Below the pieces are notes generated by a model. It searched no databases. It was not told the origin of the DNA and saw only the letters and a program-made list of their open reading frames with translations. A stretch of 64,000 nt of DNA from Ulota crispa (Eukaryota; Streptophyta; Bryopsida; Orthotrichales; Orthotrichaceae), in NCBI GenBank assembly GCA_963920765.1, contig OY987243.1:22563419-22627418 (forward strand), given 5' to 3'. The first letter of the stretch is position 1, and every line of letters begins with the position of its first letter. Positions 4,665 to 63,114 of the stretch are shown piece by piece. Position numbers and translations under genes: made by a program.

Positions 4665-5646
4665 CCCATTGCCTAAGTGGATGGAAAGTGTCCTCTAGAA
4701 TTCCAGAATTTCTATTTGAAGTGTTTTAACTTTTGTATTTATTGTCTAAATTCAATAAAAAAATTGGTGAAGTTGCACATACTAGTCTAGTTTTTATAAC
4801 AAAATTCTCAAATCAATCTAAGACATGCAGAGTTTTTGGAAGCCAATCAAACTCCCCAAGGTCAATTTGAGTTCACCACACAACTTTGTGATGGCTGCAA
4901 TTTTGGGGGCTTGTATCTTTTTCATCAAATGTTTGTTTTCAATAAAATTGGTTGGGTTTTGTTTGCCCTAAAGTCTAGTAAGGGTAATCAAACTTTCATG
5001 TCAATCCAAGTTTTTTTGAATGTTTGGGAGCAACTCAAAGTCAAAAATCCACACATTTTTGCATTACAATGAACTTTGGTGGCTTATAACTTCTTCATAG
5101 GAACTTTGTTTTCAATATTTGTTCTTAAGAAAGTTGTGCATGTTAGTTTAGTTAGTTTGATTAAAATTTCATATCAATCCAAGAAGTTATGAGTAAACAA
5201 GAAGAATTATAGTAGAGGGAGGTTTTGCCAAAGATGTGATTTTTTGTTACTTTTTTCACTGTTGTTTGACATTTCAAAACCATTTTGCAAACAAAATGAG
5301 TATATTGTTTGATAATTTCTTTCACCAATTTGTTTGTATATTGGTTTGAATCATTTTATATTTTAAATATTTTTCATTTGAGTAGGTTTAGAAATCAATT
5401 TTCACCTCCAAATGTGTTTTTAAGAAAAATTTAGCATCTTTTTGCAACACTAAAATATTATAATCTTCCAACCCATGTGATCAAATGACCTCAAATTCAA
5501 TCCACATCATTTACAAAATGCCCACATCATTTACAAAATGCACACTACAAGATTATACAATAAAGATTTTCATACTCTACTAACATTTAGACTTACAACA
5601 AAGCAAGGATACTTTCAAGCCTCTTTTGACCTTAGGCGATGAGGGG
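4665..5646. mobile_element. TTAA-flanked element (982 bp), GCCTAAG terminus
   Basis: Left end CCCATTGCCTAAGTGG and right end CCTTAGGCGATGAGGGG are inverted repeats. The flanks are TTGA (4,661-4,664, one transition from TTAA) and TTAA (5,647-5,650). The corresponding site in the second copy of the block is occupied by a different element (62,219-63,114). The interior is non-coding, with repeated phrases about 'caatccaagtttttttgaatg'. Confidence 0.65.
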
Positions 5647-6112
5647 TTAACTCACAACCCATGTGAGGATAAACAGACCCCAAACAATTGAAAACCCATT
5701 CACACAGAAATGGAATAAACAACTTTCAAGAGGTGCGCATGGAACTATAAAAACCCCACCCTCCCCATGGAGTTTAAATGCACTCACTACTTCCTTCCCA
5801 AATCTCAGGACGACCCTGGTTTTTCTCCCAAGGGGTCTTTTTACTACTTCCTTCCATTATTAGAATATTTTGAAGATTATAGTCCGATGGGAGTAAGTTA
5901 CAACCATTACAAATTTAAGATATAACCCATCAGTCATATAATATGCCACGTTGGATTTAGGCTAAAATTAGACCCTTTGAGGTAAAATTAAATGAGAATT
6001 TGAAATCTTAGCCTCACAAGTTTCATATTATAGTGTACCTTACGACTTAAGAACATTTAAAAAAATAAGTACAATACAGGCAGTTTACCCTATTATCATT
6101 TCAGGGCCTTAA

Positions 6113-7022
6113 CCCCTAAAGTCATGTTGTCCTCTCGAGGGACAAAGGGCAAGTACTTATGGTTTCAAATTTTGTTAAAATTTTTTGAAACTTTTTTTTG
6201 AAAATAGAAAAACACATTAAATTTTTGGGAATATAATTTTTATTTCTATTCATGCATGGGAGCAAAAGTTATGCCCAAATAAGCACAAATCTAGGGAGGT
6301 TGGACAGAATTCTTTTTTTACAAAACTTTGAAGTTTTCTTTTTTAACTTTTTTTCTCATAAGTTATAGTTTTTTCTAAATCTGAAGCTTTGATTCCTTCC
6401 ATTTGGACTAGTTATGAGAAAGTTATGGACAATCTTGATTTTTGGGTAGATCAAGCATCTTCCTGAAAAAATAACTTATAAACTTCATTTTTGAATGCAA
6501 GTTTAACATTTTTCCAATAAAATTGTTGGAAAGGGTGAAGATTGCTTGCTAGAACAAACTCACCATTGGGATTATTGTGTTTCAATTCCATTGCAAGGTT
6601 ATTAACCATTTAAGTATTTGTTCAATCTCATACCTTCTTCTACTCAAATCTTTTTTTTAGGAATGAAAATTAGATACTTTTTGCTGTGATTTTTTTCCAA
6701 AGATTCTCAATTCAATTTTCCACCATAAATATTTAAACCTCCAACACTTTGTGGTGCAAAAATTTTAAGTAAAAAAAGTTCAAAGTCAAGTAATCTAATC
6801 ATGCAAGGTGCAAAATTTTTTTTTTACACTTCAAACGCAAATATCTTGCAATATGTGCGGTCAAAGTTTTTGATATTTTTTTGATATTCTTATACTAGTC
6901 TAGTACAAGGTCCTACAGTTAGATATGCAAAAAGACCAGTCTTCAAACCTTTTTACTCTTTGCAATAGAAATGGTATTTTTGAGTGTCTTTTGACAAAGT
7001 AAAGGCCCTAGGGCTTTAGGGG
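6113..7022 (-). mobile_element. TTAA-flanked element (910 bp), type CCCCTAAAG
   Basis: Bounded by TTAA at 6,109-6,112 and 7,023-7,026 with ends CCCCTAAAG and CTTTAGGGG. In reverse orientation its interior matches the element at 15,298, including the 'ttttgacaaagtaaaggccct' end and the 'gagcaaaagttatgcccaaataagcac' module. Non-autonomous: no transposase frame. Confidence 0.8.
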
Positions 7023-7026
7023 TTAA

Positions 7027-8200: not shown

Positions 8201-8212
8201 TGTATTGCAACT

Positions 8213-9128: not shown

Positions 9129-10036
9129 CCCTTTAGAGACCACCGAACCATATTTTGGTTTGCAAGAGTAGTTTTTGGCCAATATAGTAAAATCGCTCAA
9201 CAATTTGGAAATTGATCTTGAAGAACGCTTGTGATTACAAGAATTTTGCATCCAACCCAAAAAATGATAATAGAATGGGATATGAGAGCTGATAAATAAT
9301 GGTGTTTATACATCATGGCCTCAAAATATGTATCCATATTTGGTCAAAGATGGATCAAAGCAACAACACAATACATCAATCATCCAAGAAGAATGTCACA
9401 TTTCAATTGTGCAATCTTAAAAAACTTCAAATTACTTAAGAAATACATTTGTATTGTTTCTCTATATAGTAGTAGTACAATTGTACTATTTGAGAATCCA
9501 TTGAAATGATGCTATCATTTTATTTAAAAAAAAAATTCATCTCACGTTTAAGGCCAATTCTTGATTGCTGTCACCGATGGGATTGTTTGTATCAATTATT
9601 AAATTTCTTGTAGAACTGTTTTAGGGTAGCAAAGAAAATGGGATTTTTGACCCTTTTTGTCCACTTAGCTACACCTTGTGATTGCTATTTTTGTCTATTT
9701 TGAGTGAAATTAGTCTTGTTGGAAAGGTGGGAAACCCTGCTTCCTAGAAATGTAAGGCTCTTCTCAATCAAAACTTGCATGAAGCGCTACCATTCAAAAG
9801 CACACAAGCATGAAAAACTAAAGATTTTCCATATACGGCTCACTCAATCATTATAATATTTCACCTCCAATGGTAAATCTAGCTGAAATTTTGATGCATT
9901 GCAACAAACAAGGTGTCCTTCACATTTGTATGGTTGGATTATTCAAGTTGGGTCCATATCTGTTTCAATTGCAGATCTAATCTTATTGCCCTGGTTTCTA
10001 ATGAATTTTGGGAAAATGTGTGTGGTCTTTAAAGGG
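9129..10036 (+). mobile_element. TTAA-flanked element (908 bp), type CCCTTTAGAG
   Basis: Bounded by TTAA at 9,125-9,128 and 10,037-10,040. Ends are CCCTTTAGAGACC and GGTCTTTAAAGGG. The interior is homologous, in reverse, to the element at 62,219-63,114; for example 'aataatggtgtttatac' and 'gatggatcaaagcaacaaca' recur there. No coding capacity beyond short frames. Confidence 0.8.
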
Positions 10037-10040
10037 TTAA

Positions 10041-12068: not shown

Positions 12069-12964
12069 TCCCTAAGGGACCAAGTCCCCCCTTTTTTTTT
12101 AGCAATACAGCAATTTTGGGCAAGTATATGCGATTGATTTTCATATTTTAGGGTCACATTTTAATAGAGTGTGAGAACAATGTTCATCTTTCATATGCAC
12201 TAGATTTCATTACATTTGAAATTATGAGTATAAAGTTATGGTCTAACATGTTGTTTTTTTCATTTGGCGAGCAGCCCGGAGATTTTAAAAAATCACTATT
12301 TTCAAAAACAAATATTTTAAATTGGTTTGAGAGACTTATGTGAATGTGGAAAGCTTTTGAATCATTTTGTTTTGATCAATGAAATGAAACTTATGAGTTC
12401 TTGTTTGCGGGTAGTTATGGGTTCTCTACTCTAAAATAAACTTTGAAATCCTTTATTTTACTCAATTTTCAATATTTTGAAATAAAACAAAACCAGAGGA
12501 TGTATATTGTTAATTACAACATTATAACAGTTGGGGTTGTCATTTTTCATTTCCATAATTAAATTCTCAACAATTTAGTGTTTTGAATCATTCTCTACTT
12601 CTTTTTACTTACTAATTTTTTCCATATATTGTGTAATTCCAAATGATTGGAAACTTTTTTGACATGTTCTTTACTTAAGTGGAATAAAGAATTTAGAGAA
12701 GCACCACCCACATGACCATTTTTCCTTAGGAATTTCACCTTCTGAAGGGTAGCTGCCCAATTTTTCACAAGAATTTTTGAATATTTAAACCATTCTAACT
12801 TCTAGTTCACAAGATGAAAACTCTGAATTTTTTTTCACATCTTCTAAAACTATTCCTCTACAAGATCCATATATACATAAAAATGTTTTTGTTTTCAAAT
12901 TTGGTTGATGCTCTCAAAAAAACAGTTTTGGAGAGTTTTTGGTGCAAACTTTGCTTGGTCCTTA
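12069..12964 (-). mobile_element. TTAA-type element, decayed right end (~900 bp)
   Basis: Starts after TTAA at 12,065-12,068 with TCCCTAAGGGACC. Its interior is the reverse of the elements at 44,304 and 17,617, including 'gggtagctgcccaatt' and 'gagagtttttggtgcaaact'. The right terminus reads ...CTTGGTCCTTAC instead of ...CTTTAGGGGTTAA, so the end is mutated and no second TTAA remains. Confidence 0.65.
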
Positions 12965-14220: not shown

Positions 14221-14223
14221 TAA

Positions 14224-15148
14224 CCCCTGGCCCAAGCCTTTTTTTCAGTGAAAGTTACTGAAATTGTCACTTTTGGGGGAATGAGTAGAAAAGTAGGACT
14301 TTTTTTTGGAAACCCAACAAGAGGATCTTGTCCTAAACTATGGGAGGTACTTGTGTGAAAAAAATCAGCTCTTTCTAAATGTAGAAGAGTGAGATATTGA
14401 CATCTAAAGTGAAAATAAAAGCTTTTCCTTGCTGCCCAATAATTTCAGAAGCCTATGACAACTCCTATATCAAAAAATTGCTCTATGCAAAGTTGTGGTT
14501 TTTTTTTCCATGTAGAAGACCAAGTTAGATAAGTGTGGGAGAATTTTCAAATGAATTGGAGGTGTGAATCATACTTTGTAAAATCTTACAATGCCAGAAG
14601 GTCATGAAAATTTGCATATACACTAAACAAAATTAGAGAATGTATGTAAAATTCAAAAATTTGAGTTATTGTGACCCAAATGGTGAAAACCAAGGAATCT
14701 TAGTCTACTACAACTTGGAAAAGAAAATAAATCAAAAAACAAATACACAAAGAGCTAAAATATGTAAAGCACCAAATTTTGCAAGGGGCAAAAGGAATGG
14801 AGGTTTGGGAGTCCCATACATACGAGCAAAATAAAACTTCTCATAACTTTCATCTCATCAATCAAAATTGAATGATTAAAAGCTTCCCAAGTTTGGAAAA
14901 GTCTAAAGAGCTAGTTTCAAATTTTTTTTGAATTTTTTTTGAAGTGCCTCATTCTCCCTTGTTTTTCAATTATTCATGCATAACTTCTTCAATATTTTTC
15001 AAAATGAAGATTTTTTTTGATGTCCACGCAGATCTTTGAATTCCTCATCTTCTATAAAAAATTCAGAAAATCGCACAAAGTAGTTTAGTTGTAAGTACAT
15101 GCCGGAAATCCCACTTGGCTCCCAAGGGACCACTTGGGCCTTTGGGGG
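14224..15148 (+). mobile_element. TTAA-type element (925 bp)
   Basis: The left end CCCCTGGCCCAAGCC follows CTAA (a mutated TTAA), and the right end GGGCCTTTGGGGG is followed by TTAA at 15,149-15,152. The right half matches the right half of the element at 19,119 ('cttcttcaatatttttcaaaatgaag', 'cgcagatctttgaattcctca'). The left half differs from it. Confidence 0.7.
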
Positions 15149-15297: not shown

Positions 15298-16217
15298 CCC
15301 CTAAAGGACCATGGCCTTTATTTTGTCAAAAGACACTCAAAACTATCACCTCTATGGCAAAGAGTAAAAAAGTTTGAAAATCAAGCATTTTGCATATTCG
15401 ACCGTAGGATCTTGTGCTAGACTATTATAAAAATGTGTCATACAAAACTCAAGAACTTTGACCGCACAGATTCGAAGATATTTGCATTTAAAAAGTAAAA
15501 AACAGCTTATTTTGCACCTTGCATGACTAGATTATTTAACTTTGAACTTTTATAACTTAAAATTTTTGCACCACAGAGTTTGGAATTCTGTTTTTGCATG
15601 GTGGGAAGTTGAGTTGGGAATCTTGGAATTTTTTTTCAAAAAAGAATACATAATTTTCATTCTTTAAAAAAACATTAGGTAGAGGAAGGTATGACATTGA
15701 TCAAAAACTTAAATTGCTAATAACCCTGCAATGGAATTGAAAAGCAACAATCCCAATGGCGAGATTGTTCTAGAAAGCAAACTTCACCCTCTCCAACAAT
15801 TTTTTTTGAAAAAATGTTAAATCTGCATTCAAAAGTGAAGTTTATAAGTTATTTTTTCAAGAAGATGCTTGAGTTGCCTGAAAAACAAGATTGTTCATAA
15901 CTTTCTCATAACTAGTCCAAATGGAATGAATCAAAGCTCCAGAAGTAGATAAAGATATAATCTATAAGAAAAAAATTAAATTTTTTTTTCAAGTTTTTAT
16001 AAGAATTTCTTTAGCTGCCCCTAGTCCTCAAATTTGTGCTTATTTGAGCATAACTTTTGCTCCTTGGCATCAATTGGAATAAAAATTATACTCCCCAAAA
16101 GCTAATGTGTTTTTCCATCTTCAAAAAAACATTCAAAAAACCAAGACAAAAATAGAGGCCGTAGGTACCTGCCCAAATTCCCATTTGTCCCCCGAAGGGA
16201 CAATGGTCCATTAGGGG
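15298..16217 (+). mobile_element. TTAA-flanked element (920 bp), type CCCCTAAAGGACC
   Basis: Bounded by TTAA at 15,294-15,297 and 16,218-16,221. Left end CCCCTAAAGGACCATGG; right end GGACAATGGTCCATTAGGGG. The left half is shared with 19,119 ('ttttgtcaaaagacactcaaaac'); the right half is shared, in reverse, with 6,113. It lies only about 150 bp from the preceding element. Confidence 0.85.
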
Positions 16218-17616: not shown

Positions 17617-18535
17617 TCCCTAAAGCACTAAGCTCAAATTTTCACCAAAACGTCTCCAAAACTGCCATTTCTAGTACAAGTACCAAATTTTAATTTTAAT
17701 TTTTTTTGACAAATGTAGTTGTAAGATCTTGTACTACATTAGCATTAAAAGATGTGAATTTTTTTAAGGAGTTTTCACCATGTAGATTGTTAGATATTTG
17801 AGTTTGAATTGACAAAAAGCCATATTTTGTCTTTGCAAAAATCCAGGCAAATGCAATTCACAAGGTCATATTTGTATGAAAAAACCTCCAAAATGATTGT
17901 ACTTTTTTGGATTTTTTCTTCAAAGCAAGTTGGGTGCACATTTGAAAATTTTAAAATCATTTGGAATTGTAAACACATGGAAAAACAATAGCAAGTAAAA
18001 AGAAGTAGAGAATCATTCAAACCACTAAATTGTTAAGAACTTAATTATGGAAATGAAAGATTCCAATCCCAATGGTTATAATGTTGTGATAAACAATCTT
18101 CATCTTTTGGTTTTTTTTCTCTAAAATATTGAAAACTGAGTATATCAATGGACTTCAAAGTTTACTTTAGAATAGAGAATTCATAACCGCCCGCAAACAA
18201 AAACTCCTCATAACTTTCATCTCATTGATCAAAATGGAACGATTTAAAGCTTCCCAAAGTATACATAAATCTAAAGAACCAATTTCAAAAAACAAAATTC
18301 AAAAAATGTAATTTTTAAAGAAGTTTTCTGGCTTCCAGTTGAGCAAAGAAAACCACATATCATGCAATAACTTTTGAACCATGAAGTTAGAAGTTATGAA
18401 AATTGTTGGGCCTTAAAGCTACTCCTTGGACACATTATGTGTGAAAATTCGAAAGAAAGAAAATGAAAACCCCATTGGTAGTGAGCTGCTCAAAATTGCT
18501 ATATTGCCAAAAAAGGGTCTTTGAGGCTTTAGGGG
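17617..18535 (+). mobile_element. TTAA-flanked element (919 bp), type TCCCTAAAGCAC
   Basis: Bounded by TTAA at 17,613-17,616 and 18,536-18,539. The left part matches 44,304 ('ttttcaccaaaa.gtctccaaaa'). The central module 'ctcataactttcatctcatt' is shared with 14,224, 19,119, 44,304 and the palindrome at 50.3 kb. Non-coding. Confidence 0.8.
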
Positions 18536-19118: not shown

Positions 19119-20037
19119 CCCCTAAAGGATCATGGCTTTTATTTTGTCAAAAGACACTCAAAACTGCCACTTCTATGGCAAAGAGTAAATTTTTTTGAAG
19201 ATTGGTCTTTTTGCATATCTAACCATAGGATCTTGAACTAGACTTGTATACGAATGTGTTATTCAAAATTTAAAAACTTGGACTGCACAGATTGCAAGAT
19301 ATTTGCGTTCAAAGTGTAAAAAACAAGCTCTTTTGCACCTTGCACAATTAGATTATTTGACTTTGAACTTTTTTAACTTAAAATTTTTGCACCATGGAGT
19401 TTTGAGGTCTATTTTTTATAGTGGGGAATTGAGTTGAGAATCTTTGGAAAAAAACCAAAACAAAAAATACATAATTTTCATTCTCAAAAAAAACATTAAA
19501 TAGAAGAAGGTTTGAGATTGAACAAAATCTTACATTATTGATAACCTTGCAATGGAATTGAATCACAATAATCCCAATGGTGAGATTGTTCTAGCAAGCA
19601 ATCTTCAACCTTTCCAATAGTTTTTTTGCAAAAATGTTAAATTTGCATTCAAAAATGAAGTTTATAAGTTATTTTTTCAGAGCAAACCCACACCTATCCG
19701 CAAACTAAAACTTCTCATAACTTTCATCTCATCTATTAGAATTCAATGATTCAAAGCTCCCCATGTCTATATAGGTCTAAAGAATCTGTTTCAAATTTTT
19801 ATTTAAAAAAATGGAATTTTTAAAAAAGTTTTTGGCTGCCCGATCTCGCCTGTTTTTAGAAATTCATTTTTAACTTCTTCAATAAATGTCAAAATGAAGA
19901 AAAAATTACATTCCCACGTAGATCTTTGAATTCCTCACCTTCAATAAAAGTTTCAAAAAATCACGCAAATTAGTTTAACCATAGGTACATGCCCAAAATC
20001 CAATTATCCCCCGAGGGGACAATTGGTCCTTTAGGGG
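19119..20037 (+). mobile_element. TTAA-flanked element (919 bp), mosaic
   Basis: Bounded by TTAA at 19,115-19,118 and 20,038-20,041. Left end CCCCTAAAGGATCATGG; right end GGTCCTTTAGGGG. The left half resembles 15,298, while the right half resembles 14,224 and the palindrome arm at 50.1-50.4 kb, so it looks like a recombinant of two subfamilies. Confidence 0.85.
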
Positions 20038-49239: not shown

Positions 49240-50395
49240 ATTTTAAATATTGCCCTAGAAAGTGGGGCCCAACCGACGTGGCACCTTGGGCAAGGCATGG
49301 GCCTTGGTTGCCCGAACACGACCCCGTTGCCTGTCAAGCCGCTGCGTCTTGCGCAGTACGGCCCTTCTCAGACACTTGCATCCTGTGTCTTGCGTTATGT
49401 GTTACGCGCAGTACACTCCGCCAGCTCTATTCACATAACAACTTGTAAAGAAGAGTGGGGGTTTCTCCCACATTGTTTGGCGTTGTGGGTGAGTTACTTT
49501 GGATACAAGAAGGACCACTTGAGAGAGAAGAAACACATAATTGCATTTCTCTCTAAGCAAAAATCTACATCAAGAGCAAGAATTACCAAGCACCACAATC
49601 TACAAAGTTATCACCCTTGCAAAGCTTCACAAACTACTTGATAAAAAGTTTAGGAAGTTTTCAAATTGTATGTATGTGGTAATGTCACAAAGATTGGAAA
49701 TGTGATATTACAGAGGTCAAGATGTCATATTACAAAGGTCAATATGAATGTATCTACAATAAAACACAAAATCAAGATGTGATATTAAAGAGGTTGCAAT
49801 GTGATATTAATGAGGCTAGGTTGTGATAGTATTGTGATATTAAAAAGGTTAGGATGTGATATTAACGAGGGTAGGATGTGATATTATAGAGGTAATTTAA
49901 AATTTAGTATTATGACTAGTGCCAACACTAATCTCTTTAATAACATAGCCTTTAATATCACCTCTTAACCTTTTTAATATCACCTTAATATTACAGCCTA
50001 GCCTCATTAAAATCACATTGCAACCTCTTTGACCCCTAAATCCTTGAGTGTCCCCTCGGGGGACAAATGAGATTTCAGGCACGTACCTATGACTAAACTA
50101 CTTTGTGTGATTTTTTGAGACTTTTATGGAAGATGGGGAATTCAAAGATCCGTGTGCACATCTAATTTTTTTTTTTCCATTTGGACAATTTTTGAAGAAG
50201 TAAAAAATGAATTTCTGAATTTTTTGAAGATGGGGCAGTCCAGGCAGCCCAAATTCTTTTTTTAAATTTACATTTTTTTAAACTAAAAATCTGAAATTGG
50301 TTCTTTGAGTTTACATATACATGGGAAGCTTTGAATCTGTCGTTTCTGGTAAACGAAATGAAAGTTGTGAGGGCTTTAAGTTAACTGGTAGATAT
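49240..50395 (+). repeat. Left arm of a ~1.15-kb inverted repeat
   Basis: The arm runs from 'ttgccctagaaagtggggcc' to a 6-base turn at 50,396-50,401. The opposite arm is 50,402-50,713 continued at 58,571-59,405. The arms are nearly identical, with a single c/a difference noted near 49,290. Contents: a frame-bearing GC-richer stretch (49,240-49,640), an array of degenerate ~20-bp GTGATATTAAAGAGG units in both orientations (about 49,690-50,030), and a half TTAA-type element (50,034-50,395). Confidence 0.85.
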
Positions 50396-50401
50396 AGAGC
50401 C

Positions 50402-50775
50402 ATATCTACCAGTTAACTTAAAGCCCTCACAACTTTCATTTCGTTTACCAGAAACGACAGATTCAAAGCTTCCCATGTATATGTAAACTCAAAGAACCAA
50501 TTTCAGATTTTTAGTTTAAAAAAATGTAAATTTAAAAAAGAATTTGGGCTGCCTGGACTGCCCCATCTTCAAAAATTCAGAAATTCATTTTTTACTTCTT
50601 CAAAAATTGTCCAAATGGAAAAAAAAAATTAGATGTGCACACGGATCTTTGAATTCCCCATCTTCCATAAAAGTCTCAAAAAATCACACAAAGTAGTTTA
50701 GTCATAGGTACGTGCCTGAAATCTCATTTGTCCCCCGAGGGGACACTCAAGGATTTAGGGGGGGTCAAAGAGGTT
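50402..50775 (-). repeat. Right arm of the inverted repeat, proximal part
   Basis: Reverse complement of about 50,020-50,395, so 50,34x-50,45x is a near-perfect palindrome. The last ~62 bases (50,714-50,775) are repeated after the N gap at 58,571-58,629, with 7 rather than 4 G in one run. After 'tcaaagaggtt' the sequence switches to bacterial DNA. Confidence 0.85.
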
Positions 50776-51065: not shown

Positions 51066-51141
51066 GAAAGATCGTTCCTCCGCCCGCCATTGTAGCAGTT
51101 CAAACGGAGAGCGTCAAGTCATGTCCATTCGGAGACGGCGC

Positions 51142-51798
51142 TTATCCTGTATAGCCGCGCAGGAGGCCGACGACTTTGCCGATGATGGAGGCGTTGTCGG
51201 CTTTGCGCAGTGGAATCGGCGCGTAGTTGGGGTTCTGCGGCTGCAATTCGATGCGGTTGCCGTGGCGTGAGAACCGTTTGACGGTGGCTTCCTCGCCCAG
51301 TCGGGCGGCGACGATGTCGCCGGTCTCGGCGGTCTGCTGGGGCTGGATGATGACCAGGTCGCCGGGCAGGATGTGCGCGCCGGTCATGCTCTCGCCCTGG
51401 ACGCGCAGCAGGAAATAGTTCTGGGTGCCGCTGCGGAGCAGTGATGTCGGGACGGGAACGATTTCCTCGATGTTTTGGGTCGCCAGCAGGGGGGTCCCGG
51501 CGGCGATAGTGCCGATCAGAGGCAGACGCAGGACGCCTTTTTCTTCGTCCTTCGCCCGGCCCTCCAGGCGTGCCAGGATGCGGATGCCACGACTCGTGCG
51601 CGGGCCGTTCTTGCTGGACAGGCGCTCGATATAGCCCTTTTTGTGCAGGGCGTCCAGGTGAATAGTGACCCCGCGCAAGGAGCCGATGGTCAGGCCCTCC
51701 TGCATCTCGCGGATAGTCGGGGGGTAGCCCTTCTCTTCGATATAGGTCACAATGAAGTTGAAGACTTCCTGCTGACGGTCAGTGAGGCCTTTTGCCAC
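51142..51798 (-). CDS. LexA repressor (bacterial)
   Basis: SOS-response repressor and self-cleaving protease, 218 residues. The GTG at 51,798 is chosen because VAKGLTDRQQEVFNFI matches the family start and GAGGAG lies just upstream. Domains: winged helix (residues 1-65, with YPPTIREMQEGL and the recognition-helix region GSLRGVTIHLDALHKKGYI), then the peptidase S24 domain. Cleavage site Ala-Gly in GTIAAGTPLL, catalytic Ser in VQGESMTG, catalytic Lys in EATVKRF. Its start overlaps the 3' end of the small membrane-protein gene by 20 bp, so the two are probably co-transcribed. I did not find a clear LexA box in the short divergent region upstream. Confidence 0.93.
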   Translation of the reverse strand: MAKGLTDRQQEVFNFIVTYIEEKGYPPTIREMQEGLTIGSLRGVTIHLDALHKKGYIERLSSKNGPRTSRGIRILARLEGRAKDEEKGVLRLPLIGTIAAGTPLLATQNIEEIVPVPTSLLRSGTQNYFLLRVQGESMTGAHILPGDLVIIQPQQTAETGDIVAARLGEEATVKRFSRHGNRIELQPQNPNYAPIPLRKADNASIIGKVVGLLRGYTG

Positions 51799-51988
51799 GG
51801 GTGCGCTCCTCGGTTTGCTCCTGCATGAGCTGGGACAATTGTGCAAATGGGGGCAATGGACTGCGGGACTGCTCGTCGCGGACCTCGTCGATGCGCGTCT
51901 TCAGCCTGGCGATGCGGCGCACCGTCTGCACAAGCAGAAGCACGATGATCGGTACGCCAAAAAGCAGCAGCCATTTGTCGGCGAGCAT
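51779..51988 (-). CDS. Small single-pass membrane protein (bacterial)
   Basis: 69 residues: an N-terminal hydrophobic helix (WLLLFGVPIIVLLLVQ) followed by a basic turn and a charged, possibly coiled-coil tail (RIARLKTRIDEVRDEQ). No family recognised. It lies immediately upstream of lexA with a 20-bp overlap and diverges from the methyltransferase gene across 58 bp, which should hold both promoters. Confidence 0.6.
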   Translation of the reverse strand: MLADKWLLLFGVPIIVLLLVQTVRRIARLKTRIDEVRDEQSRSPLPPFAQLSQLMQEQTEERTRGKRPH

Positions 51989-52046
51989 GTGTTTGTTACC
52001 CCGCAGGAAGTATACCCGATTTTGGGGGACGCGGGAAGAGGAAACG

Positions 52047-53261
52047 ATGTTGGAAATAGAAATGGCCCGCTTTCTGCTGTCTGCAGAGGGGCGGTCGCTG
52101 CTGACTCAGGCCGACAGACTCCGGGCGGCGCGCGTCGAAACATTGCCCGCGCTGATGCGTTTGCGCCGTATTGTCGCGCCCGAACAGGCGACTGCAGCCT
52201 GGGAGATGAGCGAACTGCGTCAACGAGGAGTAGCGAAATTCGGCCCGATGGCTGCGCAGATGTACTTCGTTCGCGAGGCGTTGGAACAGGCTTCCAGCGC
52301 GAGGGCGTCTGCCTATCATGCGTCCCGTTTTGCCAAGAGCGAAATGATGTCGGTTGCGGACCTGTGCGGCGGGATCGGCGGCGACGCTCTGGCACTGGCC
52401 CGGCAGGGGCGGCAAGTGACGCTGTACGAACTCGACCCCGTCAGGACGATGTTCGCTCAGGAAAACGCCGTCGTTCATAGCTTCGGTGGCAGTGTCCGTG
52501 TGATCCGGGGCGACAGCACGGTGTCTCCAATAGAAGCAGAGGCGGTCTGGTTCGACCCGGCCCGACGGCAGGACCATCGCCGCGTGTCCGACCCGGACGA
52601 TTATCTGCCCCCGTTATCGTTCGTCGAGACGCTCGCCGCGCAAGGCGTAACGAATATCGGTGTCAAACTCTCGCCTGCCATCGATCATGCGCTCGCCGCC
52701 CGTTACGGTGCGGAACTGGAATTCGTCTCCGATGGCGGCGAGTGCAAGGAGGCCCTGCTCTGGCTGGGGAAACTGCGACAGGGACTACCGCTCAGCGCGA
52801 CAAAGCTGACCGACGGCACCTCGATCTCGCTGACAGGAACGCCGGACCAAGACTCGTCAACGATGATGGACGGGGGAAACGGGCGGTATCTCTATGAACC
52901 GGACCCGGCGGCGATACGGGCGCATCTCGTGCAGACGTTGGCGGCACAACTTGCCGCCGCCCCGATCTTCCCACAGATCGCTTATTTGATCGGCGACGAA
53001 CTCATCGGGACGCCCTGGGCGGCGGCGTATGAGATCGTTGAACGCCTGCCATACCATCGGCGTCGGTTGCAGGAGGCGCTGACCGCCCATGATGTCGGGC
53101 GCGTGGTCATCAAAAAGCGCGGCTTCCCCCAGGAACCGGATGAGGTCCGAAAGCAGTTGAAACTCAAAGGCACGCGGGAAATGACCGTGGTCCTGACTCG
53201 TGCCGCCGATGGACACCAGGCCGTCCTGTGCCGCCCCATTCGGACTGAAAGTGGCTTGTGA
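52047..53261 (+). CDS. Class I SAM-dependent methyltransferase, THUMP-like (bacterial)
   Basis: 404 residues, ATG at 52,047 preceded by a purine-rich GGAAGAGG. The SAM-binding motif I is VADLCGGIGGDALALA, followed by acidic LYELD; the catalytic-side motif is VWFDPARRQ, with DPARR typical of this group. The C-terminus contains VVIKKRGFPQEPDEVRK and LTRAADGHQAVLC, as in the THUMP-like domain proteins. The substrate is not known from sequence, though an RNA target is often proposed for relatives. The stop overlaps the start of the permease gene as GTGA, indicating translational coupling. Confidence 0.85.
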   Translation: MLEIEMARFLLSAEGRSLLTQADRLRAARVETLPALMRLRRIVAPEQATAAWEMSELRQRGVAKFGPMAAQMYFVREALEQASSARASAYHASRFAKSEMMSVADLCGGIGGDALALARQGRQVTLYELDPVRTMFAQENAVVHSFGGSVRVIRGDSTVSPIEAEAVWFDPARRQDHRRVSDPDDYLPPLSFVETLAAQGVTNIGVKLSPAIDHALAARYGAELEFVSDGGECKEALLWLGKLRQGLPLSATKLTDGTSISLTGTPDQDSSTMMDGGNGRYLYEPDPAAIRAHLVQTLAAQLAAAPIFPQIAYLIGDELIGTPWAAAYEIVERLPYHRRRLQEALTAHDVGRVVIKKRGFPQEPDEVRKQLKLKGTREMTVVLTRAADGHQAVLCRPIRTESGL

Positions 53262-54554
53262 CAATTCCCCTCCTCTCGGAAACGGGTCTTTCCCGTGCCG
53301 ACAAGAAATTCAATTTTGGCGTGGCCCTCTTGGACGCCGTCGGCTGGCCGCTCGGCGCGGCCTTTCTCTCGCAGACGACGCTGCTGCCGTTGTTCCTGCG
53401 CCATCTCGGGGCCAGCAATACCCTCGTGGGGGCGCTGCCGGCGTTGTACAACCTGCTGGTCTTCCTGCCGGGGCTGCTGGTGGTCGGGTATTTGCGGAAC
53501 CGGCCACGGGCACGCGGCTATCTCTGGTGGGTGGCCCTGCTGGAGCGCCTCGCCCTGGTGCCGGTGGCCGTCCTGACGCCGCTGTGGGCGGGGACACACC
53601 CCGGCTGGCTGCTCGCGACGCTGTTCCTCTGTATCGGCGTCCATGCCGGGATGATGGGACTGAACCAGCCCGCTTACTGGGTGGTGATCGGAAAGACGAT
53701 CCCGCCCCATTGGCGCGGTCGCTTGTTCGGGTACGCCGGCGGCATCGCAGGGGTGCTGGGAATCGGCCTGGACCGGGTGCTGGATCGTTTGCTGTCCGGC
53801 CCGACGGGTGGCTTTCCAAACGGATACGCGCTGTGTTTCTGGATCGGCTTTGCGCTGATGACGGTCAGTTTCCTGCCGCTCGGCATCATCCGCGAGCCGT
53901 CGGCCCCGCCGATTGCCGATGACGACCCACACACGGGACACTATGGGCGGGACAGCCGCCGTGTGTGGCGCGAGAACCATGGCTTCCGCCGATTTCTTTA
54001 TGGTCAGATCTGCTTTTACTGCGCGACGCTGGCAACACCCTTCTTTGTCCTGGAGGCCGGACGCCGCCTGCACGTTGGGGCGGAGGCGGTCGCCGGATAC
54101 ACGGCCACACTGATCCTGGTCGGGTCGTTCGGAGGACTGGGGTGGGGGGCGTGGAGCGACCGGGTCGGCAACAAGGCCGTTCTGCTGGCTTCTGCCGTCT
54201 GTGCCTTCCTGGCGGCCCTCCTGGCCCCGCTGGCCCCATCGGCGGCGCTCTTTTATCTGGTCTTCGCCGCCCTGGCGCTGGCGACGGCGGGCGCGGGGAT
54301 CGCCGGCAACAACATGGTGATGGAATACGCGGCCAACAGCCGAGACATCCCACTGTATACGGCAATGTTCAACGCCATCACGGCTCTGCCGCGTGCTCTC
54401 GCGCCCTTGATTGGGGGGGCTGCTCGCCGACCATCTGGGCGGCTTCCATGCTGTTTTTGCTTTGTCTGCGGTGTGCGCCGTTCTGAGCCTGTTTCTGACG
54501 ATGCGCGCCGAGGAGCCGACTAGGGCGGGAGGAAAAAGAACGCCAGGGCAATGA
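53258..54554 (+). CDS. MFS transporter with one frameshift (bacterial)
   Basis: Multi-helix permease of the major facilitator superfamily; the substrate is unknown. GTG start overlaps the upstream stop (GTGA). Hydrophobic helices run from GVALLDAVGWPLGAAFLSQTT onward, and WRGRLFGYAGG resembles the conserved loop between helices 2 and 3. At 54,413-54,419 a run of seven G shifts the frame. With six G, the frame would continue as LLADHLGGFHAVFALS to a stop at 54,554, for about 431 residues. Without that correction the frame ends at 54,523 in a non-hydrophobic, unlike-family tail. The 3' end overlaps the convergent exchanger gene by 35 bp. Confidence 0.8.
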
Positions 54555-55614
54555 TGGCATAGGCCGCCAGCAGTTGTGCGCCTTCCAGCCAGTGGCATTT
54601 GCCGTCGCCCGCGATGAAGGCGATGATGATGACGCTGAAGCCGATGGCGGTCATTTCGGGGACGCTGAAGATGAATGTCAACGGGTGGTGCATGAGGAGG
54701 CTGGCGAAGACCAGGACCGGGGCGACGAACATGGCGATCTGTGTCGAAGAGCCGATGGCGATGCTCATGGAGATGTCCATCTTGTTCTTCATCGCCATCC
54801 AGACGGCTGTCGAATGTTCGGCGGCGTTGCCGACAATGGCGACGATGATGATGCCGATGAACACGTCGTTGACGCCCAGCGCGTGCGCCGCGCCTTCGAC
54901 GCTTTTGACCAGGAATTCGCTTTCCATTGCCACAAACACGGTCGCCGCGCCCAGCACCGCCATGGCGACACGCTTGTTCCAGTGCGGCGGATCTTCCTCG
55001 TCATCGCTGCAATCCCGTCCGACAAACGCTTCATGCGTCCGCAGCGAGAACCAGAGCGACGCGACATAGACCAAGAGCAAGATACCCGCGACCCACAGCG
55101 AGAGGTTTTCGATATCCGGGTTTGTGGAACTCTTGCTGCGATGAAACGACTCGGCGAAGATGGCCGGCAATGCCAGTGACAGAGCGGCCAGCAGCAGATT
55201 GATCGCCTGTGACTCGGCAAGGTCCTGGTTGAACGTCTGCAATTTGTGCTTCAGCCCGCCCGCCAGGATGCTCGCTCCCAGCACCAGCAGCAGGTTGCCG
55301 ATGATGGAGCCGACAATGGACGCCCGCACGAGTGGGATGAGTTTGTCGCCCTCGTGGAGCGCGAACAGACCGATGATGAGTTCTGTCGCATTCCCGAACG
55401 TCGCGTTCAGCAGTCCGCCCCAGTTCGCCCCCAGGTGTTTGGACATCTCCTCCGTCGCCGTCCCCATCAGTCCCGCCAGGGGAACGATGGCAAGCGCTGC
55501 CGAGACGAAGACCCAGAGCGGGTTCATGCCCGGCGTGTAGTGTAAGAAGACGGACACAGGGACAAAGAGCAGCAGCAGATTGATGCCACGGAAGAAGCGG
55601 AAGACGGCAGCCAT
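54520..55614 (-). CDS. Ca2+/H+ exchanger, CaxA type (bacterial)
   Basis: Inner-membrane cation/proton antiporter of the CAX family, 364 residues, about eleven helices. The two signature repeats are present: GGLLNATFGNATELIIG in the first half and VAIVGNAAEHSTAVWMA in the second, each carrying the ion-binding Glu in GN-A-E. An acidic loop (DCSDDEEDPP) lies between the halves, as in relatives. The length is normal and the frame intact. It is convergent with the MFS gene. Confidence 0.92.
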   Translation of the reverse strand: MAAVFRFFRGINLLLLFVPVSVFLHYTPGMNPLWVFVSAALAIVPLAGLMGTATEEMSKHLGANWGGLLNATFGNATELIIGLFALHEGDKLIPLVRASIVGSIIGNLLLVLGASILAGGLKHKLQTFNQDLAESQAINLLLAALSLALPAIFAESFHRSKSSTNPDIENLSLWVAGILLLVYVASLWFSLRTHEAFVGRDCSDDEEDPPHWNKRVAMAVLGAATVFVAMESEFLVKSVEGAAHALGVNDVFIGIIIVAIVGNAAEHSTAVWMAMKNKMDISMSIAIGSSTQIAMFVAPVLVFASLLMHHPLTFIFSVPEMTAIGFSVIIIAFIAGDGKCHWLEGAQLLAAYAIIALAFFFLPP

Positions 55615-55658
55615 GCGGCATTGTACCTGAAATAGTGGGGTTGAAAAGTAAACCCAGT

Positions 55659-56768
55659 TTAGGAGCGGTTTCGCAGCAGTGCCATCATCGCGGATTCTTC
55701 ATCGCGCAAGGCCTGTGAGTTGGCCAGAGATTCGCCCGTGCCGCGCTTTAAGACTGCCCGCAGACTGCCATCCGTATAGGCCTCCAGGACCGCCGGGTGG
55801 ACATAGCACTTGCGGCAGATCGCGGGCGTGTTTCCCAGCGCCGCCGCCACACACTTGATGACCCCGGTGATGTTCTTTTTGGCCTGTCGGGGCGATTCCG
55901 CCGCCTCGCACTCGGCCAATGCTTTGGCAGCCAGGATCGTCCCCGCCCAGGTCCGAAAGTCTTTGGCCGTGAAATCCTGCCCGCTGATTTCGCGCAAATA
56001 AGAGTTCACATCGTCCGAACCGACCGTGTGAGGAATACCGGCCGCGCCGATGTATTCGAACAGTTCCTCGCCCGGCAGTTCCTGACTGCGCTTGATGATC
56101 TTCGCCAGGCGTGGGTCGCGCAGATCAATGGCGTGGTCCTTGCCGCTTTTGCCGCGAAATTGGAAATGCACGGTCGAGCCATGGACGTCGACATGGGTGT
56201 TCTGCAGCGTGGTCAGCCCGTAGGACTCGTTCTGCCGCGCATACTGCTCGTTGCCGATTCGAATATGGGTCTCTTCCAGCAAACGAACGATCGTCGCGAG
56301 CATCTTCTCACGTGGCAGGCCGCGCAGCCCCAGATCGTGCGTGACCCGCTCTCGGATCTGCGGCAGCGCCTCGCCGAACGCGATCATCCGGCCATACTTG
56401 GTCTCGTCCCGGACTTCGCGCCAGCGGGGGTGATAGCGGTACTGCTTGCGGCCTTTGGCGTCCTTGCCGGTCGCCTGGAGATGGCCGTTCCACAACGGCG
56501 CGATCCACACATCACGGTAGGCCGGCGGGATGCCGAGCGCACGGATACGTGTCAGTTCGGCCTGACTCGTCACCGGTTTGCCATTGGGACCGAGATAGGT
56601 GAACCCGTTCCCCTTCTGCCGCCGCGTGATGCCGGGCTGTGCATCCGTGATATAGCGCAGCCCTGCCGCTTTGGCGGACAGGATCGGGTCCTTGCCGATC
56701 TCCGGTCGGTCATGGGCCGCTTGAATGACTTCGGTTGGTGACTTTGAAGTGGGTGTGTGATCTGCCAT
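55659..56768 (-). CDS. DNA topoisomerase IB (bacterial/poxvirus-like type)
   Basis: Type IB enzyme that relaxes supercoils by transient 3'-phosphotyrosine nicking. 369 residues from ATG at 56,768, chosen over an upstream in-frame extension that has no family similarity. Visible: N-terminal GLRYITDAQPGITRRQKG and RALGIPPAYRDVWI, then KGRKQYRYHPRWREVRDETKYGRM. Catalytic-domain marks are IRIGNEQYA (Arg), HFQFRGKSGK (Lys), FRTWAGTI (Arg), and the nucleophile Tyr in ICRKCYVHPAVLEAY. Only 34 bp separate it from the ATPase gene upstream on the same strand. Confidence 0.93.
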   Translation of the reverse strand: MADHTPTSKSPTEVIQAAHDRPEIGKDPILSAKAAGLRYITDAQPGITRRQKGNGFTYLGPNGKPVTSQAELTRIRALGIPPAYRDVWIAPLWNGHLQATGKDAKGRKQYRYHPRWREVRDETKYGRMIAFGEALPQIRERVTHDLGLRGLPREKMLATIVRLLEETHIRIGNEQYARQNESYGLTTLQNTHVDVHGSTVHFQFRGKSGKDHAIDLRDPRLAKIIKRSQELPGEELFEYIGAAGIPHTVGSDDVNSYLREISGQDFTAKDFRTWAGTILAAKALAECEAAESPRQAKKNITGVIKCVAAALGNTPAICRKCYVHPAVLEAYTDGSLRAVLKRGTGESLANSQALRDEESAMMALLRNRS

Positions 56769-56802
56769 AGATGGTGAAAATGTACCCATCAATGAGGCAG
56801 GC

Positions 56803-58370
56803 TTACACGTACTGTTTGGGTGGACGGAATGTGCGGAGGCGCAGGGCGTTGGTGACGACGGAGACGGACGAAAGGGCCATGGCGGCGGCGGCGAGCATGG
56901 GCGATAAGAGGCCGTGGCCGGTGATGGCATACAGCAGACCGGCGGCTAGGGGGATGCCCAGGGTGTTGTAGCCGAAGGCGAAGGCGAGGTTCTGCTTGAT
57001 GTTTCGGACGGTGGCACGGGACAAGGCGACGGCGACCACGACGCCCTGGAGATCGCCGCCGAGCAGGGTGATGTCGGCGGCCTCGATGGCGACATCCGCC
57101 CCGGTGCCGAGCGCGATGCCGACATCGGCCTGGGCCAGCGCCGGGGCGTCGTTGAGGCCGTCGCCGACCATCGCGACGACGCGGCCCTGGCGCTGCAGCC
57201 GGGTGACTTCGGCGGCTTTGTGTTCGGGGCGCACGTCGGCGATGACCCGGTCGATCCCAGCCTCCTGGGCGATGGCGCGGGCCGTGCGTTCGCCGTCTCC
57301 GGTCAGCATAACGACATCCAGCCCCAAGTCTCGCAGGGACCGGACGGCGGCGCGTGATGTCGGTTTGAGGGTGTCCGCGACGGCGATCAGCCCGGCGGAC
57401 GCGCCGTCCACGGCGACATACATCGGGGTCTTTCCCGATTCGGCCAGCGCGACGGCCTGTGCTGTCAGGCCGACGGTGGAAATGCCGTGGGTTTCAAGAA
57501 GACCGGCATTCCCGGCGAGCACGGAGCGCCCGGCGACCGTCGCCGCGATGCCCTGACCGGCGATGTTGTCGAAGTGGGTCGCGCTGGGGAACGCCTCACC
57601 TTCAGCGGCGGCTCCCTGGATGATGGCGGACGCCAACGGGTGTTCCGAACCTTGCTCGGCCGCCGCCGCCAGGCGCAGGATGTCTCGCGCAGGCAGGCCG
57701 TTGGCGGGGATGACATCGGTCAGAACGGGCCTGCCGGTTGTCAAAGTCCCCGTCTTGTCCAGCACGACCGTCTGCACGGCCCCGGCGCGTTTCCAGCGCC
57801 TCGGCGTTCCTGATCAAAACACCGTACTCCGCGCCCTTGCCGATGCCCACCATGAGAGAAGTCGGGGTCGCGAGACCGAGCGCGCAGGGGCAGGCGATGA
57901 TCAGGACGGAAATGAAACCCGAAAGGGCCAGACTCGGGTTATGCCCAACAGAGAACCAAAGGACGAACGTCAGGAGGGCGATGCTGAGGACTGTGGGGGA
58001 CGAAGTAGGACGTCACCCGGTCAGCCAGCGTCTGGATAGGGGCGCGAGAACTCTGCGCCCGCTGTACCAGTTGAACGATCCTTGCCAGGGCCGTCTCCGC
58101 CCCGGTGCGCGTGACCATGAAGACGAACGAGCCACGCGTGTTGAACGCACCGCCGGTAACGGGGTCGCCGATGCGCTTCTCGACCGGCAGGCTTTCCCCG
58201 GTGATGAGCGCCTCGTCCACCCAGGAACCGCCTTCGACCAAACGCCCATCAGTGGGGACGCGCTCGCCGGGCCGGACCCGCACATGGTCGCCCACCCGAA
58301 TCTGTGCGATGGGGAACATCCTGTTCTTCGTCGTCGCCTACCCGCCGCGCCGTCTTGGGCTGCAGTCCCA
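56803..58370 (-). CDS. Copper-type P1B ATPase, 5'-truncated, three frameshifts (bacterial)
   Basis: Heavy-metal-exporting membrane ATPase. In order along the minus strand: [17 protein letters not shown] and [10 protein letters not shown] (actuator domain), the metal-channel motif [11 protein letters not shown] near 57,880, the phosphorylation motif DKTGTLTTG, the nucleotide-binding [22 protein letters not shown] and [20 protein letters not shown] plus this HP context suggests Cu+ or a similar metal. The 5' end, including the metal-binding domain and first helices, is lost in the N gap. The frame breaks at 58,311-58,314 (GGGG), 57,995-57,999 (GGGGG) and near 57,785. Each is repaired by removing one base, and two are in G runs, pointing to sequencing error rather than gene decay. 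Confidence 0.88.
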
Positions 58371-58570
58371 NNNNNNNNNNNNNNNNNNNNNNNNNNNNNN
58401 NNNNNNNNNNNNNNNNNNNNNNNNNNNNNNNNNNNNNNNNNNNNNNNNNNNNNNNNNNNNNNNNNNNNNNNNNNNNNNNNNNNNNNNNNNNNNNNNNNNN
58501 NNNNNNNNNNNNNNNNNNNNNNNNNNNNNNNNNNNNNNNNNNNNNNNNNNNNNNNNNNNNNNNNNNNNNN
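58371..58570. other. Assembly gap, 200 N
   Basis: Exactly 200 unknown bases separate the bacterial ATPase fragment from plant inverted-repeat sequence. The round length suggests a placeholder rather than a measured distance. Confidence 0.98.
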
Positions 58571-59621: not shown

Positions 59622-59830
59622 TGTGTGATACTAAAGAGGGAGGGTGTGATACTAAAGAGGGAGGGTGTGACATTAAAGAGGGAGTGTGTGATATTAAAGA
59701 GGGAGGGTGTGATATTAAAGAGGGAGGGTGTGATATTAAAGAGATAATTTAGATTTTTGTAGTATGATTAACAATAACACCAACATCTTTAATGTCACAC
59801 CCTCCCTCTTTAGTATCACAATCTCCCTCT
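59622..59830 (+). repeat. 20-bp tandem array with inverted end
   Basis: Six direct units of GTGTGATATTAAAGAGGGAG form (59,622-59,743), a 45-base spacer, then two units in reverse orientation (59,790-59,830), so the array folds back on itself. It is related to the more degenerate arrays in the inverted-repeat arms. The preceding sequence 'cacaaactacttgataaaa' is also shared with them. Confidence 0.85.
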
Positions 59831-59880
59831 AGAAGAGAGCTACAAGATCACTTGATAACTTTTGTAACGAGAGGCCATAA

Positions 59881-60276: not shown

Positions 60277-60984
60277 TAACTAATTTAAGTTTTCAACCAC
60301 CTTTAGAGGTGGGTGATGAAGTTATCATGCCTTATAACTTCAAAAAATGATTGAATTGTGAGTTGGACCCAACCAAACTTGTCTAGTGAAAAATAGCCAA
60401 ATTTGACACCCACTATTTAGGGTGCTCTTACCAAAACTTTTACTCCCAAGTATCATTGATGGATAACCTTTACTTTTACTTTCTTTTCCTTTCCTCTTTA
60501 TAAATTTGGGTCATTCTCACAAAGTTTTGCTGGCAAGTAGGGTGGACGGAGGCCTTGTGAACTTATTGGGGGGGGGGACTTGTCCAGGCCGTAGTGCAGT
60601 ACTGGTGATGAGGCCAGTCAAGGGACAGGGGTGAGTGGATGATTCATGTTCTGTTCTGTCAACAAATAAGTTACCGTGATCATCACTTTAGAGTCCAGGC
60701 TCAGGGGGGGGTTGGGAGGGTATAATTCCTTTAGGGCTGCAGGACCAGATGGGTATATTTGAGTAACAAGAATATGAGTCATATGACCGTGGCCTCTCAT
60801 GTGTGTGAACCCCTGACTTCTGCAGCAAAAGTTAACCAGCAAATCTTACTTGTGCAATAGGAAGTCCGTCACATGAATTGGCAAAAAAACCGGTTGAAAT
60901 TTGAATCTACTGGATAAAGATTGCAGATTTATGAAAAACATGTAGTTGTTGTAAATTTTCGTAGGCAATATCCGGTGCGTGCAC

Positions 60985-61308
60985 TCAGAGCAGCTTCACA
61001 TTATGGTCAAAGGTGGCTATCAATTTCCACCAATCATATTATAAGCCTCTTGACACACAATAGAGGTCAAAGTCCAAAATCCCCCATCCATCGTACTGTC
61101 TGCATGGTAACACTTTATCATGCAAATCAACTACATCTCAAAGGGAAGTTTGGGTTTAGCAAAATTGAAGACCCAAACTATGGTCGTAAGGTCGTGAGTT
61201 TCAACATTTACTACCTATTTGCAACCCATTTTCTTGGCCTCTCAACAAAGTTTGACCACTCAATCCCACGACCCCTTGATTTAGTTGGCCATTGTATGAA
61301 GCGGTCCT
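60985..61308. mobile_element. Inverted-repeat element, AGGGCCACTTCA family (copy 2)
   Basis: Counterpart of 3,411-3,764, with ends 'agagcagcttcacattatgg' and 'ccattgtatgaagcggtcct'. It was present before the block duplicated. Confidence 0.5.
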
Positions 61309-62218
61309 TGATTGAAAATGAGAAATGCTAGGTTTTCTATCAATGAAGCTCAATATCCCTTGGACACTATTCTTGAACAAAGAGGATGGTAGAATTATTG
61401 GGTTTTGTTCCAATGGAATTTGCAAGGAAAGAATTGTGCTATTGTGTCTATTTCCAATGTAAATGATAAGTGTATCAACACCAAAAAATAACAAAATGGA
61501 CACAAAATTGAGTTGGAGCTAGATCCAATGAAGTGTCTTTGTTCTGGATATTGAATCTGGGAGTAGGGAAAATCATGTTTTCTTTGCAAAGCTTTTTTGG
61601 TTTTTTTTCAATACGTCCTACACTTCACACACTAATGGTTCAACTCCGCCATGGTGGGCGTAACCAAGGCGCCAAAGATCAAAGAAAGAAAGGATTTCTT
61701 TTGTTAGAGGAGCAATTGTTGATATAGATAGGAGTAATTGACTAGCTTGGCCCACCTTCACGTCATTGATTCTTGTTACATCTTGGTTGGATATAGTTGT
61801 TTTTGATATGGTGTAGCAAATATGGCTCATACTAAGATAGTGTGCTCTAATTGCGACCCATTTGTGTAAAGCATTCTATATGTAGCTCAAGAATGGACAT
61901 GAAGTGGTCATTGAATGGGCCTCATAAAAAATAATGTGCATTTTATTGCAAGAGTCAATCATACTCCTATATTTCTCCTCATCTCTTTACAAGTTGCAAG
62001 GGAACAATTTATGAGAGACCAATCTTCTAATAAAAGTAGTCACATGGTTGAAAAAATAAGCGCTTACTTTCTCAAGCATACTTGGATGTACTTCATGTGT
62101 TTCACACAATTCTTGCACTAAGTAGTTGAAGTGATACATAATACACATTTAAAATGTTGGCACTCTTAGAAAACATTCACACCAAGTGTGACAAAAACAC
62201 AATCTCAATGAGTTTTAA

Positions 62219-63114
62219 CCCTTTAAGGATCACACCCATTTTCACAAAATCCACTGAAAACAGGGGTTGTAAGCTTAGATTTGGAATTAACTCAAATATG
62301 GACCCATATTCAATAATCCAACCATACAAATGGGAAGTGCACCTTGTTTATTGTAAAGCACCAAAATTTCAACTAGATATACTGTTGGAGGTGAAACATT
62401 ATAATGATTGAGTGAGCCATATGCAGAAAATCTCTAGTGTTTCATTCTTGTATAGTTTTGAATGATAACGCTTCATGCAAGCTTTGATTGAAAAGAGCTT
62501 TACATTTCTAAAAAGCAGGGTTTCCCACCTTTCCAACAAGACTAGTTTCATACAAAATAAACAAAAATAGCAATAATAAGGTGTAGCTAAGTGGACAAAA
62601 AGGGTCAAAAACCCCACTTTCTTTGCTACCCTAAAATGGTTCTACAAGAAATTTGATAATTATTTGGAAAATCCAATTGTTGAAAACAATCAAGAATTGG
62701 CCTTAAATGTAGGATGACAAATTTTAAAACCAAAATGACAACAACATTTCAGTAGATTTTCAAATACTACAATTACATTACTACCGTATATGAAAACAAT
62801 ACAAGCATATTTCTTAAGCAATTTGAAATTTTTTAGAATCGTGCAATTGAAATTTGACATTCTTCTTGCATACTTGATGCATTGTGTTGTTGCTTTGATC
62901 CATCGTTGACAAAAAATGGATAAGTATTTTGAAGCCATTCCGTATAAACACCATTATTTGTCAACTCACATACCCAATTGCATTATTATTTTTTTAGATG
63001 GATGCAATATCACATGAGTTCTTCAAGACCAAATTCCAAATTAGTGAACAATTTCAACCTACATGCCAAAGACCACTCCCAACGACCAAAATATGGTTGC
63101 GTGGTCCTTAAAGG
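62219..63114 (-). mobile_element. TTAA-flanked element (896 bp), type CCCTTTAAGG
   Basis: Bounded by TTAA at 62,215-62,218 and 63,115-63,118, ends CCCTTTAAGGATC and GGTCCTTAAAGG. Homologous, in reverse, to 9,129-10,036. It occupies the same position in the duplicated block as the unrelated element at 4,665. Confidence 0.8.

Follow-up and report, generated by a model that had tools for sequence, protein, structure and literature searches.

What kind of mobile element leaves a dozen short insertions with inverted ends, most of them bounded by TTAA on both sides, in one stretch of a plant genome? The stretch in question, a 64,000-nucleotide piece of Ulota crispa DNA (the window), is part of contig C2 in a 274.8-Mb assembly of 157 contigs. 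The original prediction, made from the letters of the window, described twelve such elements and proposed that they form a non-autonomous TTAA-targeting family served by a transposase encoded elsewhere in the genome. Genome-wide counts, a target duplication of four bases and the presence of piggyBac copies support this proposal and narrow it to one superfamily. The window elements are very probably non-autonomous miniature inverted-repeat transposable elements (MITEs) of the piggyBac superfamily, mostly 0.65-0.95 kb long, in the nuclear genome of a moss. They are assigned to piggyBac because the duplication is four bases long, the ends carry CCC, the copies number in the thousands, and piggyBac genes with TTAA-CCC ends reside in the same genome.

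Twelve elements of 895-1005 bp each can be placed in the window. TTAA stands at both flanks of nine, and the remaining three have it at one flank. Their combined length of 11,090 bp makes up 19.7% of the 56,430 bp that are left when a bacterial-looking block and an adjoining gap are subtracted, which confirms the predicted set and its share of about a fifth of the plant sequence. A strict rule, which accepts only TTAA-flanked inverted pairs 850-1060 bp apart, finds seven cases in the non-bacterial sequence and none in any of 100 first-order Markov simulations.

The genome-wide search for termini that had been proposed as a check shows how common these ends are. The 13-bp terminus CCCCTAAAGGACC occurs 9,597 times (4,753 + 4,844), compared with three times (2 + 1) for the reversed control, and exact TTAA precedes it in 8,154 copies (4,072 + 4,082; control 0). 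The shorter sequence TTAACCCCTAAA has 30,972 matches (15,477 + 15,495), compared with 77 (41 + 36) for its control. Because each element has two ends, halving the latter count gives about 15,000 elements, or roughly 4-5% of the genome at 0.65-0.93 kb each; this figure is an estimate rather than a count. When pairs are defined by their termini alone, 34 of 47 from the window and 20 regions of contig C1 are flanked by TTAA on both sides, in a sample where regions were selected for containing termini and some pairs overlap. A second set of 42 elements was selected with TTAA in the score, and its proportion of TTAA/TTAA members (40/42) is not used as evidence. One similarity group holds 29 of these 42, and the 94 pairwise matches longer than 500 bp within the set average 83% identity. 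Related groups end in CCCCTAAATGCCC (about 645 bp) or CCCTTAAA (about 225-540 bp).

The single family originally envisaged is an oversimplification: the window holds a set of related families, not one family with CCCCTAAAGGACC ends. Only three elements carry the exact 13-mer on at least one end. They are located at 15298-16217 (920 bp; ends CCCCTAAAGGACC / CCCCTAATGGACC), 19119-20037 (919 bp; CCCCTAAAGGATC / CCCCTAAAGGACC), both with TTAA/TTAA flanks, and 44304-45210 (907 bp; perfect CCCCTAAAGGACC at both ends). Ends of the form CCCTTTA..GA are found on the elements at 9129-10036 (908 bp; CCCTTTAGAGACC / CCCTTTAAAGACC) and 62219-63114 (896 bp; left end CCCTTTAAGGATC, right end one base shorter). 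Further types are CCCCTGAGCGCC, at the left of 34763-35667 (905 bp; left end CCCCTGAGCGCCC), CCCCTCATCGCC, at the right of 4665-5646 (982 bp; ends CCCATTGCCTAAG and, as reverse complement, CCCCTCATCGCCTAAGG; TTGA left, TTAA right), and CTCCTAAAG, on 36130-37134 (1005 bp; CTCCTAAAG / CTCTTTAAGG; TTAA/TTAA).

A target duplication of four bases

Plain TTAA on both flanks fits a duplication of TTAA, and it equally fits a duplication of TA by elements with ends ACCCC...GGGGT. Sites that depart from TTAA were examined for this reason. In front of CCCCTAAAGGACC, base -4 is not T in 325 copies (control 0) and base -1 is not A in 286 (control 1), compared with 8,154 unchanged copies. Since the two positions vary equally rarely, the outermost base of TTAA is no less conserved than the innermost.

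A change at both ends was found in 15 facing pairs, 150-1,600 bp apart, among 196 listed places. These places comprise 96 of the first 100 listed with a change at -4, four having been left out as beyond the range of the other list, and all 100 listed with a change at -1; changes were sought at these two positions only. In 11 of the 15 pairs the same four bases occur as a direct repeat, TTAG in six, CTAA in three and TTAT in two, an agreement with p 0.00017 when right-hand labels are randomly reassigned. One of the four non-matching pairs (C1:193123) holds another terminus inside and may not be a single element. The target duplication is thus four bases long. The TTAA duplication originally predicted held, and the TA or other duplication that was tested against it did not appear. 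Integration by piggyBac at the non-TTAA sites CTAA, TTAG and TAAA is described in PMC3983033, and natural piggyBac elements at TTAG, CTAA and other sites in PMC10813416.

The window also contains unfilled counterparts of the element at 44304-45210, as had been claimed. Its joined flanks align to 4286-4450, where a single TTAA occupies the site, and to 61806-62018, where there is a single TTGA. These empty sites are real, but taken alone they are compatible with a TA duplication. For the element at 19119-20037, five diverged unfilled relatives were seen, none of which has TTAA at the site.

piggyBac transposase copies and their termini

DDE_Tnp_1_7 (PF13843), one of the profiles named in the original prediction, has matches in this genome. 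A profile search of the genome yielded at least 120 matches above the cut-off, with a best E-value of 1.3e-73, and none of 14 control genomes matched. A few matches are pieces of one copy; since scoring covered 116 of 528 first-look candidates, the actual number is probably higher. Ten of the 120 rows are free of stops. A stop-free frame of 476 amino acids (L043) matches the solved piggyBac 6x67 (E 4.1e-20) and piggyBat 9c0f (E 5.8e-17), and piggyBat is also recovered, at E 2.7e-63, by a profile built from moss frames and their relatives. In an alignment of L043, L044 and L045, the L044 and L045 frames keep Asp at what we take to be the positions of the DDD motif. A Cys-rich tail was seen by eye in two database relatives (P0121 and P0123) and not in the genomic frames. 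With the moss transposase as query, protein searches returned 16 and 97 relatives; those with names come from animals and Phytophthora, and no land plant is among them, most rows being unnamed.

Several coding copies have ends that can be located precisely. The likeness between the copies L030 and L039, which are 90.5% identical, ceases one base beyond a TTAA that follows the end CCCTTCATTGCC. When L045 is compared with L046, the outermost matches start exactly at TTAACCC and stop precisely with the terminal TTAA/TCAA; some internal stretches do not match. These two elements are about 5.5-5.7 kb long, with left ends CCCATTAAGGA and right ends CCC[AT]TTAAGGACC. More generally, the longer members with DDE_Tnp_1_7 (clades A and B) have ends that are alike but not identical to CCCCTAAAGGACC, and the clade B right end agrees with that mini-element end at 11 of 13 bases. 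Published piggyBac ends begin CCCT, CCCTTT or CCCATT, according to PMC12732532.

The clade B right-end pattern has 93 matches genome-wide and none in the control. Three of the 35 places scored as clade B transposase, each with 50% or more identity to L043 over some part, have a match 1.59-1.66 kb downstream on the expected strand, against about 0.01 expected by a hand-worked estimate. One of these three copies (C8, L045) contributed to building the pattern, a second (C7) had been picked up by its first version, and the one on C6 is a new case. In L042, L043, L045 and L046, and in the genomic slices L047, L051, L054 and L057, which were sampled only in a downstream range of 1.2-2.0 or 1.45-2.0 kb, the right end seems to lie about 1.5-1.9 kb beyond the DDE domain or the end of the frame. 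In 14 slices downstream of other piggyBac copies, an exact GGGTTAA end is present in the expected orientation in seven and in the other orientation in one.

Direct comparison links many mini-element ends to those of coding copies. Twenty ends from 10 of the 12 window elements were compared with 15 ends of piggyBac copies, using shuffles as the null, and 14 of the 20 reach p <=0.012. Both ends of the element at 9129 and the left end of that at 62219 agree with the clade B end at 12 of 13 bases; the other end of 62219 has a match at nine. Over its first 16 bases, counting the TTAA, the left end of 34763 agrees exactly with the end that follows a piggyBac copy on contig C10 (L057). The right end of 4665 scores best against the same copy (10/13) and by eye resembles the CCCTTCATTGCC end of L030 and L039.

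Likeness extends beyond the termini in three slices, L048, L055 and L056, which mark candidate direct parents. Their CCCCTAAA-type ends (CCCCTAAAGGCCC, CCCCTAAAAGACC and CCCCTAAAGGATT) lie 1.7-1.9 kb downstream of piggyBac copies, and their tails have about 450-590 bp in common with mini-elements. In the C7 copy with the CCCCTAAAGGCCC tail, this likeness extends for about 590 bp, and upstream of it the remaining 300 bp of the mini-element are absent. Such a pattern may reflect a mini-element that is an internally deleted derivative of the copy, and it also fits a mini-element that was inserted there and truncated. Of 1,659 candidates in a genome search with this tail, 40 were scored, and these gave 39 further places with 74-77% identity. 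Mini-element-like tails occur in three of the four slices from copies in which the PF13843 match breaks off at profile position 347 and in none of ten others, an association (Fisher p near 0.011, hand-worked) that was grouped after the data were seen and includes two slices without a PF13843 row among the ten.

Weighing the assignment

A number of observations count against the piggyBac assignment or bear on whether the system is mobile today. Stops interrupt 110 of the 120 PF13843 rows, and the stop-free frame L043 has Asn where the third catalytic Asp is expected (GVNVGDQ). Ninety of the 93 clade B right-end matches adjoin no scored clade B copy, and seven of the 14 downstream slices have no clear right end. 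Two window ends, the right end of 34763 (9/13, p 0.16) and the left end of 4665 (7/13, p 0.79), match no piggyBac end. Those of the CCCCTAAA type match best L048, L055 or L056, which are possibly mini-elements themselves, and mini-element insertion might account for the CCCCTAAA ends near L032, C5:24512207 and C9:12442616. No listed PF13843 match lies 5 kb or less from any of the 39 places found with the C7 tail. Among the copies examined, no open transposase frame was seen between two CCCCTAAAGGACC ends. One candidate for such a coding parent, the 5.1-kb copy L010 with perfect ends, was rejected, as it has no recognisable transposase and contains pieces like other repeats.

In a rival reading, a transposase of the Kolobok or Sola3 superfamily moves the mini-elements and the piggyBac copies are bystanders. 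Kolobok and Sola3 both duplicate TTAA, a property that the moss elements share with them, and no intact piggyBac copy with exact CCCCTAAAGGACC ends was seen. It is nevertheless unlikely that either is responsible, since the piggyBac copies here have TTAA-CCC ends that agree with mini-element ends at 11-12 of 13 bases, and two of the off-sites, TTAG and CTAA, have been published for piggyBac as well, although the genome was not searched for Kolobok or Sola3. MITEs of the Tc1/mariner or Harbinger type, with a short duplication (TA or TTA/TAA) that happens to fall within TTAA, would look the same at a plain TTAA site if their ends were ACCCC...GGGGT. This explanation is highly improbable. The equal conservation of -4 and -1, together with the matching off-site pairs, rules out a TA duplication as made by Tc1/mariner and Stowaway elements, and the four-base repeats TTAG, CTAA and TTAT in 11 of 15 pairs rule out the 3-bp TTA/TAA duplication of PIF/Harbinger and Tourist. 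In addition, the longer copies L010, L011 and L013 yielded no Pfam transposase match in any of their six frames, although the genome was not searched for mariner or Harbinger.

It is just as improbable that the piggyBac signal and the elements derive from contaminating animal or oomycete DNA. Foreign DNA does occur in the assembly, in the form of the bacterial block beside a 200-N gap, and the named relatives of the transposase are from animals and Phytophthora. However, PF13843 matches and clade B ends are spread alike over contigs C1-C11, with contigs of up to 41 Mb, and the window elements flank, on both sides, a plant trihelix gene with moss relatives.

With piggyBac as the preferred source, a piggyBac transposase encoded at another locus would bind the short ends (CCC and about ten further bases), excise the element and paste it into TTAA, or rarely TTAG, CTAA or TTAT, duplicating the four bases. 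The piggyBac transposases would in this way mobilise the mini-elements, or would once have done so. The mini-elements may have arisen by internal deletion of piggyBac parents, probably in several lineages in parallel. A broader proposition, that piggyBac is a resident and prolific superfamily in this moss and that several of its lineages each spawned TTAA mini-elements (the CCCCTAAAGGACC, CCCWTTAAGGACC, CCCCTGAGCGCC and CCCYTCATYGCC types), giving around 15,000 copies or more and several percent of the genome, is moderately favored.

The piggyBac superfamily is known mainly from animals, fungi and protists. Its members (T. ni piggyBac, piggyBat) and its MITEs resemble the moss elements in their 4-bp TTAA duplication (rarely TTAG or CTAA), CCC ends, DDE_Tnp_1_7 domain and gene-less derivatives. 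The moss set differs from these in its host, its tens of thousands of termini and its several coexisting end types, and the coding copies differ in their length of about 5.5-5.7 kb and in the 1.5-1.9 kb between DDE domain and right end. The plant MITEs Stowaway (Tc1/mariner) and Tourist (PIF/Harbinger) are likewise short and gene-less, with inverted ends and very high copy number, but they duplicate 2 or 3 bp, unlike the tested 4 bp of the moss elements. The kind of element is a known one, and the surprise is the moss host and the scale.

Literature searches of open-licence papers recovered, among the matches listed, no report of piggyBac elements in mosses. A paper on Niphotrichum was set aside as a candidate, both of its word matches being to the 'piggybacking' of gene expression. 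Another land plant, the fern Ceratopteris, has a 'PiggyBac' row (1,230 copies, 122 kb) in the repeat table of PMC6890710, an entry that comes without ends, duplications or a transposase in that table. The abstract of PMC10813416 states that piggyBac has been isolated from insects, fungi and plants. A MITE survey of 207 plant genomes, four of them bryophytes, recognizes five superfamilies and Micron, and its main text mentions neither TTAA nor piggyBac (PMC12550479). Abundant piggyBac-type mini-elements in a land plant may be overlooked or wrongly classified by the pipelines used for plant MITEs. They also raise the questions of vertical descent or horizontal arrival, of their occurrence in other mosses and of a plant-adapted piggyBac as a tool, and they offer thousands of insertions for the study of TTAA targeting in plant chromatin.

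Other window elements and their surroundings

The twelve elements are completed by those at 6113-7022 (910 bp; CCCCTAAAG... ends; TTAA/TTAA), 12069-12963 (895 bp; TTAA left, right tip lost), 14224-15148 (about 925 bp; CTAA left, TTAA right; entered in the coverage count with start 14225) and 17617-18535 (919 bp; TTAA/TTAA). A shorter relative outside the twelve, at 29716-30362, is 647 bp long, with left end TCCCTAAATGCC and TTAA/TTAA flanks. By eye, the elements at 15298-16217 and 19119-20037 have a small subterminal hairpin-like repeat (TTGTCCC...GGGACAA or similar) beside the terminus at one end.

Some insertions are closely associated with one another. Two copies of one repeat, at 4200-4670 plus 5646-5900 and at 61747-62224 plus 63113-63371, have flanks that are 84% and 91% identical, and the same TTAA in both is filled by different elements (4665 and 62219) without detectable likeness to each other. 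The pattern of a shared empty site for these two insertions is absent genome-wide at up to two mismatches. In L015 (487-2059) and L045 (5834-5863), adjacent TTAA elements have one TTAA/TCAA in common, a pattern expected if one element had jumped into the target-site duplication of its neighbour. An identical 920-bp element is found in opposite orientation with swapped flanks at L019 6916-7835 and L020 3800-4719, about 7 kb apart on contig C1 (about 907-915 kb); the pair reflects either an inverted duplication of recent date or a misassembly.

A trihelix transcription-factor gene lies at about 24.1-26.2 kb of the window. Its best named relatives are from Sphagnum jensenii (51% identity) and Physcomitrium patens (55%), flowering plants being lower, and further relatives with up to 81% identity rank above the named ones. 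The host is taken as a moss because this protein is closest to mosses among named relatives. Positions 51100-58370 look bacterial, with LexA identified by Pfam and exchanger-, topoisomerase- and metal-ATPase-like frames by eye, and abut a scaffold gap of 200 N (58371-58570). This block is most likely a contaminant contig that was scaffolded into the moss chromosome. Immediately before it, at 50041-50753, lies a palindrome in which the right part of a mini-element faces itself.

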